Origin: Pseudomonadota bacterium
GTDB taxonomy: Bacteria > Desulfobacterota > Desulfuromonadia > Geobacterales > Pseudopelobacteraceae
NCBI GenBank assembly: GCA_019352135.1
Contig: JABBNX010000018.1
Span: 1-35,278, forward strand
Direction of reading: 5' to 3'
Length of the DNA: 35,278 nucleotides
Positions 2,559 to 4,592 of the stretch are shown piece by piece (the first letter of the stretch is position 1; every line of letters starts with the position of its first letter). The notes beneath the pieces are model-generated. The model had not been told where the DNA came from, did not search any database, and worked only from the letters and a program-made list of their open reading frames with translations. A program made the position numbers and the translations under genes.

Positions 2559-2578
2559 TGAGTTAGAGGCTTAATAGA

Positions 2579-2815
2579 ATGAAATCAATAGTCATTTTTG
2601 GAGCTGGCATAGCCGGATTAAGTGCTGCCCATGAATTAGCCCAATTAGGATATAATGTTTCGGTGTATGAAGTTACTGATCAGCCGGGTGGTTTTTTTAG
2701 AAGTTCACGACTGAGTCAAAACAACATGCCGACGGAGTATTATCGATTCTTTTTTTATTTATTTCTCAGTGCATGTGGGTATCCTCCACCCTCTAAATCG
2801 GTGTTACCAGCCTGA
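2579..2815 (+). pseudogene. Truncated FAD/NAD(P)-dependent oxidoreductase (N-terminal fragment)
   Basis: The first 55 codons encode a clear Rossmann dinucleotide-binding start: MKSIVIFGAGIAGLSAAHEL with GxGxxG, the acidic end of strand two (VYE), and QPGGFFRSSRL, as in amine-oxidase or phytoene-desaturase-like FAD enzymes. After MPTEYY the sequence turns into an unrelated Phe/Leu/Pro-rich stretch and stops at codon 79. Full-length relatives run several hundred residues and include a substrate domain, so this fragment cannot be an active enzyme. A weak ribosome site (AGAGG) remains. The break is followed by a promoter and riboswitch for the next gene, so a deletion or insertion may have joined the two. 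Confidence 0.8.
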
Positions 2816-2855
2816 CCAAAAGTCACTTTTTCATTTTTTAACAAAACTGGCTGAG

Positions 2856-2883
2856 TTGACATCCGGTTTTTTTGTGAAATAAT
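2856..2883 (+). promoter_or_regulatory. Sigma-70-type promoter upstream of the riboswitch
   Basis: TTGACA (2856-2861) is followed after 16 bp by AATAAT (2878-2883), five of six matches to the -10 consensus. Transcription would start near 2890, about 30 bases before the GEMM aptamer, giving a 5' leader of roughly 180 bases. Confidence 0.65.
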
Positions 2884-2921
2884 GGAAAGTAAAAGGATAC
2901 ACAGCGGGTCATCCCCAGAGA

Positions 2922-2996
2922 ATAGAATGCCAACACATTCGCGAGGATGAGATGGAAAGCCTAACTGGTCTCACCGAGACTGCCGGGTTGGCAAAA
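2922..2996 (+). ncRNA. GEMM-I (GEMM-Ib-like) cyclic dinucleotide riboswitch aptamer
   Basis: The element has the GEMM layout. A closing helix GCCAAC (2929-2934)/GTTGGC (2987-2992) encloses a first hairpin CATTC-GCGA-GGATG (2936-2949) with a GNRA tetraloop. The conserved joining segment GGAAAGCCTAA (2954-2964) follows, then a second hairpin GTCTC-ACC-GAGAC (2968-2980), then TGCCGGG. GEMM-I RNAs bind c-di-GMP. The Geobacter subgroup (GEMM-Ib) binds 3',3'-cGAMP or both, and this element closely resembles Geobacter examples as I remember them. I could not align by eye the base that sets ligand preference. The promoter lies upstream and the collagen-like lipoprotein gene downstream, so it should control that gene. 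No clear terminator switch is visible between 2997 and 3060. Confidence 0.88.
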
Positions 2997-3070
2997 TAGC
3001 ATGGATATCTTCTCTCAGATTTTTTGTTTTGTGGAAGCCACAAAGACTCATTCAAAGGAGGTAATAGGTT

Positions 3071-3349
3071 ATGGAAAGAAAGACATTAACGTGTATTATT
3101 TCAACGATGTTCATCATGGCGTTAGCGCTGAGCGCGTGCGAAAAAACCGAAAAAACAACTACCGTGACTCCCGGGCCGGCAGGCGCCCCGGGCGCACCAG
3201 GTGCGACAGGCACCACTGGTGCGACAGGATTTTCTGGGCATAGCGGCGCAAGCGGGGCCACGGGAAATACCGGGGCTTCTGGTGAGCGCGGGAAAACCGG
3301 CGACTCCATAGTAGTTGTTCCGGCTCCACCTCCCGAGAAATCAAGATAA
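3071..3349 (+). CDS. Collagen-like lipoprotein under riboswitch control
   Basis: A 92-residue protein. Residues 1-23 are a lipoprotein signal peptide ending in the lipobox LSAC (Cys23). A short Thr/Lys/Glu spacer follows. Residues 35-79 are 15 unbroken Gly-X-Y triplets (starting GPAGAPGAPGATG), which could form a short collagen-type triple helix. The tail is IVVVPAPPP plus a charged end. Bacterial collagen-like proteins usually act at the cell surface as rods or adhesins; here the lipid anchor would place it on the periplasmic or outer face. The start is supported by AAGGAGG (3056-3062). Expression probably depends on the promoter at 2856 and the GEMM riboswitch, and a strong terminator follows at once, so the gene is monocistronic. 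The exact function is unknown. Confidence 0.85.
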   Translation: MERKTLTCIISTMFIMALALSACEKTEKTTTVTPGPAGAPGAPGATGTTGATGFSGHSGASGATGNTGASGERGKTGDSIVVVPAPPPEKSR

Positions 3350-3352
3350 GAA

Positions 3353-3385
3353 AAATCCCCTGAAGCGTGTTGCTTCAGGGGATTT
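3353..3385 (+). terminator. Strong terminator hairpin after the collagen-like gene
   Basis: A perfect 14-bp stem, AAATCCCCTGAAGC (3353-3366) with GCTTCAGGGGATTT (3372-3385), and a GTGTT loop begin four bases after the stop codon. It ends in TTT and the A-rich 5' arm is typical of intrinsic terminators. Confidence 0.85.
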
Positions 3386-3707
3386 CGCATGTAAAAAGGT
3401 CAAACCTACGCATTTGTCAGATTCAGCCGATTTGTCCACTCCGAACTTGTTAGCTGAAAGTATTCTCCTATTTCACCGAGTTTCGCACCGCGATAACAGT
3501 GGAGGATATGAATTGCCGGCTTCCTGCAATTCCATCACTGCGCCGTGGGACAATGCGATTACTTCGGCCGAATCGTGCCTGCCAGGCAAGCGACAACATT
3601 ACTGATCCAAACTACAACGTAACCATAGTTGATCCGTATCGAATCTAGTTTTTTAGCTGTGCACGTTTAAGCCGGATTTATGTCAAAAATGATCAAGGGA
3701 GGTTTGA
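3386..3707 (+). other. Intergenic region, no intact gene
   Basis: No convincing gene or promoter was found. A frame at about 3571-3648 reads ASDNITDPNYNVTIVDP before a stop codon. That resembles the end of a repeat from secreted beta-rich proteins (MBG-type repeats), so it may be a decayed remnant. The match is too short to call. The last bases carry the ribosome site of the next gene. Confidence 0.35.
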
Positions 3708-4592
3708 ATGGACAGACGTACATTCATAAAAGCCACTGGAACCGCTATATTGCTGGCTCCAACGTTGATTAAGGAAGTTCTAGCAGCTCGCGAACAATCG
3801 CTGGTCGCAGTGGCAGAGGGTACCGATTATGCCGCTATAACCAGAAAAGCCATCAATACTGTAGGCGGTATGAAGCGGTTTGTTAAACCTGGTGATGTGG
3901 TAGTTGTTAAACCCAACATGGGGTGGGACCGCTCAGTCAAGTTTGCTGCCAATACCCATCCCCTGGTGGTACGGGCGGTTGTGGAGGAGTGCCTGGCTGC
4001 AGGGGCTAAAAAAGTCAAAGTGTTTGATAATACCTGCAACGATCCTCGCCGCTGTTATGTTAGCAGCGGAATTGAGGCGGCCTTGAAAGGGATGAAAGGG
4101 GTCGAGTGCAAGCATATTGAAACGGAGCGCTTCAGGAAAGTCACTTTGAACGGTACGTTTCTGAAAGAATGGGAGTTGTACGACGAAGTTCTCTCCGCCA
4201 ATGTTTATATCAATGTGCCGGTAGCCAAACATCACGGGCTTTCAAAGCTGACGCTCGGCTTGAAAAATGTCATGGGGATCATGGGTGGTAACCGTGGTTA
4301 CATCCACCGCAATCTGGATGCAGCCCTGGCGGATGTCAACGCGCATGTGAAGAGCCACCTCACCATTATCGATGCAACCCGAATCCTCACAGCCCACGGG
4401 CCACAGGGGGGTAATATTGCCGATGTCAGGGTGCTTAACAAAGTGATCGCTTCGACCGATATTGTTGCTGCTGACGCTTATGCCACAACATTATTCGGCA
4501 TGAGGCCGGCCGATATTCCGGTGACAGTTACCGCTTACAAGCGTGGCCTGGGAGAGATGAATCTGGACAAGATCAAGGTAGTAAAGGCGTAG
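3708..4592 (+). CDS. Tat-exported DUF362-domain protein
   Basis: A 294-residue DUF362-family protein. The N-terminus has a twin-arginine signal (MDRRTFIKATGTAILLAP, cleavage near residue 27), so the protein should fold in the cytoplasm and be exported. The DUF362 core follows: VKPGDVVVVKPNMGW (about 62-76), a Cys-containing FDNTCNDPRRCY segment (about 106-117), NVYINVPVAKHHGLSKLTLGLKN (about 166-188) and the DIVAADAYATTLFG region near the end. It has no ferredoxin cluster of its own, although many DUF362 proteins do. AGGGAGG precedes the ATG. The polyferredoxin gene starts four bases after its stop codon, so the two are surely co-transcribed and the protein may be a periplasmic partner of that membrane iron-sulfur protein. 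The biochemical function of DUF362 is not settled. Confidence 0.85.
   Translation: MDRRTFIKATGTAILLAPTLIKEVLAAREQSLVAVAEGTDYAAITRKAINTVGGMKRFVKPGDVVVVKPNMGWDRSVKFAANTHPLVVRAVVEECLAAGAKKVKVFDNTCNDPRRCYVSSGIEAALKGMKGVECKHIETERFRKVTLNGTFLKEWELYDEVLSANVYINVPVAKHHGLSKLTLGLKNVMGIMGGNRGYIHRNLDAALADVNAHVKSHLTIIDATRILTAHGPQGGNIADVRVLNKVIASTDIVAADAYATTLFGMRPADIPVTVTAYKRGLGEMNLDKIKVVKA

Follow-up and report, generated by a model that had tools for sequence, protein, structure and literature searches.

Does a cyclic dinucleotide control the gene of a tiny collagen-like lipoprotein in this member of the Geobacterales? The question arises from a stretch of 35,278 nucleotides (the window), one contig of a source genome of 3.8 Mb in 275 contigs, in which a GEMM-like RNA precedes the lipoprotein gene. 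A sequence-only reading had proposed that the RNA puts this gene, and with it a collagen-like surface rod, under second-messenger control. The present analysis does not support such control: the P1 helix, several pocket positions and the expression platform show decay, and the pairing of RNA and gene does not recur in the other loci scanned. The leader of the lipoprotein gene is probably a decayed relic of a GEMM-Ib riboswitch for cGAMP, from whose control the gene would have been freed. The comparisons set out below give good support for placing the lipoprotein gene behind a switch that was once of the GEMM-Ib type.

Layout of the locus

Along the window, a YflT-domain gene (1890–2558) is followed by the start of an oxidoreductase gene, a promoter-like site, the GEMM-like RNA, the lipoprotein gene and a DUF362 gene (3708–4592). 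A CsbD-like gene also lies upstream of the unit. Around the RNA, the following features were located:

2579–2741, plus strand: start of a gene for an NAD(P)/FAD-binding oxidoreductase, truncated and left as a remnant upstream of the unit (Pfam NAD_binding_8, 40.6 bits)
2856–2883, plus strand: sigma-70-like promoter, TTGACA-16-AATAAT (11 of 12 consensus letters)
3054–3062, plus strand: Shine-Dalgarno sequence AAAGGAGGT (read from the sequence)
3071–3349, plus strand: tiny collagen-like lipoprotein of 92 amino acids with lipobox LSAC (ORF translation; Pfam)
3352–3386, minus strand: dyad of 15 pairs, an intrinsic terminator by its minus-strand T-run, perhaps two-way (terminator scan)

The consensus-like promoter and the ribosome site described by the sequence-only reading were both recovered, the former as one of two sites with at least 11 of 12 letters on both strands of the whole window. 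At a looser threshold of 9 of 12, the scan returned 2 sites in the region against 1.9 expected; since this count is at chance level, only the quality of the 2856–2883 site supports a promoter, and transcription would start there. The strong terminator that had been claimed downstream of the gene fared less well, because the T-run of the dyad belongs to the minus strand. Read on the plus strand, the stem ends in ...GGGGATTT and continues with CGCATG, so that it looks like a better terminator for the minus strand; the scan gave 1 terminator-like site compared with 1.6 expected in shuffles.

The oxidoreductase fragment is 82% identical to locus L178 and 85% to L037 over exactly 2579–2741, and the match of related oxidoreductase copies ends at 2741. 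Among the loci compared, the upstream block matches genome G028 at 92% as far as 2568, while the downstream block matches G006 (90%) and G027 (89%) from 3608 and G013 (95%) from 3666. Between these flanking blocks, the oxidoreductase fragment alone was matched (L178, L037 and L038). Apart from this fragment and the GEMM part, 2569–3607 was unmatched in 11 neighbouring loci of relatives, and 2560–3420 was unmatched in a DNA search of 39 genomes of the genus. As the rest of the stretch has no match in these relatives, the unit occupies a private, rearranged stretch.

GEMM-Ib ancestry of the leader

2919–3000, plus strand: GEMM-Ib (c-di-GMP-I clan) aptamer, probably decayed (RF01051, 31.3 bits; model R1, 51.8 bits)

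A search with the Rfam GEMM-I model, named earlier as a check, gave a divided outcome: the RF01051 match to 2919–2995 is significant (E 3.2e-4 in 641 bases), and its 31.3 bits miss the curated gathering score of 35. A non-significant covariance score, named by the sequence-only reading as refuting it, is therefore what the curated Rfam threshold gives, but the E-value does not. The source genome contains 18 RF01051 matches at E ≤1, of which 16 reach the cut-off, and that at 2919–2995 is the weakest. Another ten belong to GEMM-Ib and resemble one another closely, and from these siblings a covariance model, R1, was built. R1 matches 2919–3000 with 51.8 bits and E 5.2e-13; in the same genome the ten siblings score 92.7–109.1 bits and other GEMM groups at most 35.8. 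A DNA profile of aptamer plus platform reaches E 7.6e-19 over 2925–3029, and DNA identity to genuine GEMM copies rises to 86% over about 62 bases. These values, far beyond chance, establish 2919–3000 as genuinely related to the GEMM-Ib (3',3'-cGAMP) riboswitches, and its ancestry is secure; to this extent the GEMM-Ib-like aptamer of the sequence-only reading stands. Among the GEMM-Ib copies of the source genome, the window copy is an outlier.

Changes in the sensor

The extent of the divergence was measured on an alignment of 43 rows fitted to R1 (A2), from which the window, three duplicate rows and five non-Ib rows (L002, L004, L014, L016 and L017) were set aside. The remaining reference comprises 34 distinct Ib copies from the source genome and 17 loci of relatives. 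At 14 columns the window carries letters or gaps absent from all siblings, and 10 of these fall among the 42 invariant columns; when each of the 34 siblings was left out in turn, none broke more than two. Conserved pocket and tertiary positions of GEMM-I, including C92, a Watson-Crick contact of the ligand, were taken from the published list in Vc2 numbering and placed on the window RNA in the present analysis (PMC3764141). G20, A47, A48 and A49 are kept among the positions tested; A25, C44 and C92 are changed. The relevant features are:

2929, plus strand: selectivity position, Vc2 G20, here G (A in 32 of 34 distinct siblings in A2)
2934, plus strand: Vc2 A25, here C (A in 34 of 34 Ib copies and 40 of 40 further GEMM-I matches sampled)
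2953, plus strand: Vc2 C44, here T, U in the RNA (C in 34 of 34 Ib copies and 40 of 40 further matches sampled)
2991, plus strand: Vc2 C92, here G (C in 33 of 34 Ib copies and 31 of 40 further matches)
2935–2950, plus strand: P2 hairpin with GCGA tetraloop, retained save for an A.A at its base (Rfam alignment; fold comparison)
2967–2981, plus strand: inner P3 hairpin, retained (Rfam alignment; coordinates)

The 40 further GEMM-I matches of the genus are a non-random sample, made up of the first 20 rows of the list and 20 lower, hand-picked rows. An A at position 20 defines the GEMM-Ib (cGAMP) subclass, and G is the letter of c-di-GMP binders. The window, with G at 2929, lacks the defining letter; both siblings that share its G lie in locus L040, and G is the commoner letter (29 of 40) in the sample. 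The position has been termed a selectivity factor (PMC9262584). As for C44, it pairs with G83 between the helices (PMC3764141).

The exchange at position 92 was considered as proof of riboswitch death and withdrawn, as the sampled matches carry C in 31, G in 6 and T in 3 of 40 cases. Because copies with good scores, forming a conserved group, also carry this G, C92G alone proves little, and the case for decay rests on A25, C44, P1 and the platform.

Both hairpins and a closing helix had been described for this RNA. P2 and the inner P3 are indeed present, together with the junction AAA and the tetraloop, whereas three of the four pairs of the GEMM P1 closing helix are broken in an ungapped comparison with a sibling-type sequence. 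Counted as pairs of the model alignment, the damage is modest, with 5 of 23 broken in the window copy against 0–4 in siblings; this measure, taken alone, puts it only just outside the sibling range. The energy of the GEMM fold is −2.3 kcal/mol (ungapped) or +1.4 kcal/mol (model alignment) in the window, compared with −18.6 to −4.8 kcal/mol in the 34 siblings, and the leader has a best fold that is 14 kcal/mol more stable. About 13 of the 18 differences from the sibling-type sequence are outside the P2 and P3 stems, as counted by eye; together with the kept hairpins, AAA and tetraloop, this is a pattern not particularly expected of plain neutral decay.

Other unusual GEMM-I copies

Several copies elsewhere depart from the usual letters. 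A group with G for C at the ligand-pairing position 92 includes L002 (source genome, C40:10902–10993), L200, L205, L206, L207, L215 and L216. It has the pattern TTTCCGAAG...GTTGGCGA, accounts for 6 of the 40 sampled matches plus L002, and scores 57–60 bits with RF01051; its ligand contact is possibly shifted or altered. Five of the 40 sampled matches (L184, L191, L193, L197 and L211) carry C at the selectivity position 20. The tandem GEMM-Ib copies of L040 (G024:C1, at 1350–1431 and 1494–1575) have G at position 20, and one of them has A at 92; these are other candidates for altered specificity or decay.

Loss of the expression platform

3001–3029, plus strand: eroded platform, with a loop remnant and the T-run 3020–3025 of the former overlapping terminator (profile alignment; terminator scan)

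In 27 of the 34 siblings, a terminator scan detected a hairpin of −18 to −36 kcal/mol built on the 3' half of the aptamer and ending at a T-run. The scan was silent in the other seven, and it evidently misses some, as a strand resembling a terminator can be seen by eye in one scan-negative copy, in L040. Applied to the window, the same scan found no such terminator, the best candidate being a stretch of −9.1 kcal/mol that forms no hairpin next to the T-run. The aptamer-plus-platform profile aligns as far as 3029: the loop and the T-run 3020–3025 survive and the GC-rich terminator strand is gone, a pattern that is what a fossil terminator would look like. The terminator overlapping the aptamer 3' half, which marks a GEMM-Ib ON switch, is thus missing from the window, and the unit can no longer be called complete, as it had been.

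The consequences of such a loss can be gauged from G. sulfurreducens, in which pgcA stayed highly expressed in the absence of gacA when its riboswitch carried an insertion whose predicted effect is a less stable terminator (PMC6456294). Since that insertion freed expression from cGAMP, the expected effect in the window would be transcription without a switch. Before its decay the unit presumably operated in the way its siblings seem to, with RNA polymerase starting at the promoter just upstream and the aptamer folding behind it. Without ligand, the 3' half of the aptamer would have re-paired with the downstream strand into a terminator; with 3',3'-cGAMP, the aptamer would have been held together and transcription would have continued. 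At present, transcription from 2856–2883 would run into the lipoprotein gene at any ligand level, because the terminator strand is eroded and P1 and pocket positions are changed. The RNA would no longer respond to ligand and transcription would be constitutive, its product being a lipid-anchored protein of 92 amino acids with a short collagen-like stretch, encoded by an intact gene.

A new closing helix and alternative readings

2928–2934, plus strand: TGCCAAC, 5' arm of a closing helix of 7 bp that is foreign to GEMM (most stable fold of the 82-nt element)
2987–2993, plus strand: 3' arm of the same helix, GTTGGCA (lowest-energy fold of the 82-nt element)

The closing helix of the sequence-only reading was probably this pairing, which differs from GEMM P1 and uses the strands of the ligand pocket. 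As the strands of positions 20 and 92 pair together in it, TGCCAAC/GTTGGCA excludes the GEMM fold. An alternative to decay is that selection, by changes on both strands, remodelled the aptamer into a locked three-way junction closed by this helix, which might act as a constitutive leader (for example through mRNA stability) or as another sensor. When the 82-nt element is folded alone, its most stable structure (−20.4 kcal/mol) is closed by this helix, and the hairpins are kept. When random letters were placed in the same 18 differing columns, a helix of at least 7 bp arose in 0.14% of 50,000 trials, and with random columns in 0.55%; these figures were obtained after the fact and from one sibling-type start, and fewer changes would suffice if the ancestor, like L014, already had G20 and C22. 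In growing transcripts, the mean pairing of the helix is 0.70 at end 3000, 0.34–0.47 at 3010–3073, and drops to 0.24 at 3110. It is absent from the lowest-energy fold of the leader 2890–3090, though only 0.7 kcal/mol above that fold, and it is known from a single sequence. The rarity of the helix, after the fact as it is, is suggestive of something new that chance would seldom produce. It is compatible with an RNA that was rebuilt and did not simply decay, a reading that we nevertheless consider unlikely.

That the RNA still switches in response to c-di-GMP or cGAMP through an atypical platform, for instance a translational one acting through 3010–3016, is likewise regarded as unlikely. The G at position 20 is the commoner letter of the sample and G at C92 occurs in conserved copies, both of which would suit such a switch. 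However, A25 and C44 are each invariant in the 34 + 40 other copies and changed here, P1 is broken, and the GEMM fold has the energetic cost given above. The UUCUCUC of 3010–3016 can pair with the Shine-Dalgarno sequence or with 2916–2924 at mean values of 0.23 and 0.27, and a translational platform was rejected because both pairings are weak.

Chance resemblance without kinship to GEMM, with which the sub-threshold Rfam score, the lack of any Rfam match at gathering level in the whole window and the ordinary lone-strand fold of the leader (z −1.2) would agree, is ruled out by R1, the aptamer-plus-platform profile and the DNA identity to genuine copies, and its probability is negligible. The preferred reading remains a decayed GEMM-Ib riboswitch.

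The lipoprotein family and its association with GEMM elements

The lipoprotein with 15 Gly-X-Y triplets that had been reported here is confirmed by the intact ORF 3071–3349 with its lipobox LSAC and by a Pfam Collagen (PF01391) match of 36.3 bits against a cut-off of 27.2. Counted on the translation, the triplets occupy residues 35–79, and VVP lies near the C-terminus. In an alignment of eight sequences, the window's included (A3), the lipobox Cys, PGPxG (the start of the Gly-X-Y stretch), VVP and a terminal R are invariant. A triple helix may form, although 15 triplets are few, and a location at the surface is predicted.

Of 141 genomes belonging to the order, 15 (the source genome included) contain family matches at E ≤1e-5, the weakest of which may be unrelated repeats. 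Such matches also occur at 56 loci of named genomes, most of them presumably Betaproteobacteria. This widespread family of tiny lipoproteins is represented by L086–L141, L020–L023, L025, L026, L033 and L080. NCBIfam models gave no match above cut-off for the window's member and one Betaproteobacterial member, the best score being 31.2 against 325. In several relatives the neighbours of the lipoprotein gene are what we take to be stress-type proteins (small BON, lmo0937-type, helix-hairpin-helix and CsbD-like).

R1 was run over 42 collagen-type and 72 lipoprotein-search loci (overlapping sets) and returned only the window's own element (L068, L150) at E<0.1; this model misses typical c-di-GMP members (L001 and L003 are unlisted), and most of the 56 named-genome loci were scanned with it alone. 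Rfam at relaxed E gave no other GEMM before collagen-like genes in sets of 15, 13 and 20 loci. From the opposite direction, a survey of genes downstream of GEMM elements, proposed earlier, found Gly-X-Y runs of at least six triplets in none of 42 rows besides L018, the window's own; these rows are part of several hundred GEMM matches of the genus, some share a gene, and some stretches end at contig ends. Because no scanned family locus save the window's own has a GEMM element, the link between GEMM and lipoprotein looks private to the window's lineage. A lipoprotein target is nonetheless in character, since 13 of the 17 other GEMM rows of the source genome (L002, L005 and L007–L017, some sharing a gene) precede an exported protein or lipoprotein, as judged by eye.

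A literature search that covered few subscription journals returned, among the matches listed, no case of GEMM before a collagen-like gene. No paper in it joined a collagen-like protein, a riboswitch and cyclic di-GMP, and the one match for Geobacter with collagen triple helix repeat concerned corrosion by a methanogen.

Relation to known systems

The closest known systems are the Geobacter GEMM-Ib (cGAMP) riboswitches, for example those of pgcA (GSU1761) and pilM, with which the window copy shares ancestry, hairpins, junction core and a position between a promoter and an exported-protein gene (PMC6456294; PMC9262584). In contrast to these, it lacks the terminator, P1 and several pocket positions, and has G for A at the selectivity position; its siblings in the source genome possess the overlapping terminator with which an ON switch would be expected to work, and the window copy does not. 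The pgcA riboswitch mutants of G. sulfurreducens resemble it in predicted terminator loss and expression freed from cGAMP, the latter being expected for the window, although those are selected or laboratory mutations and the window is a natural, far more diverged copy (PMC6456294).

Two class I GEMM-I copies of Clostridioides difficile, Cdi-1-4 and Cdi-1-5, have been called nonfunctional and appear to be duplications missing from most genomes (PMC6200980). The window copy differs from them in being unlike all the siblings compared and in having an intact gene behind it. The Bc2 c-di-GMP riboswitch of Bacillus thuringiensis precedes the gene of the collagen adhesion protein Cap, a surface protein, and is alike in being of GEMM type; Cap is named for adhesion to collagen, and Gly-X-Y repeats are not mentioned in the abstract part of that source (PMC4933901). 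With bacterial collagen-like proteins (PF01391; NCBIfam Scl, Lcl), the window protein has the Gly-X-Y repeat in common. It differs from them in being tiny and lipid-anchored, in its conserved VVP end and in falling far below the NCBIfam cut-offs.

Significance

Decayed riboswitches tend to drop below search cut-offs, as the window copy does, and few papers on them were found. Here undamaged sibling copies, from the source genome and from others of the genus, serve as a ruler for what the window copy has lost, namely terminator, P1 and pocket. The case also calls for caution, as a GEMM-like leader before a gene is not proof of control by a cyclic dinucleotide. Should the lipoprotein gene nevertheless prove to be controlled, the cGAMP regulon would gain a collagen-like surface protein. 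If instead the RNA was rebuilt, a riboswitch would have turned into a constitutive structured leader or another sensor, and the lipoprotein gene would have left the cGAMP regulon.
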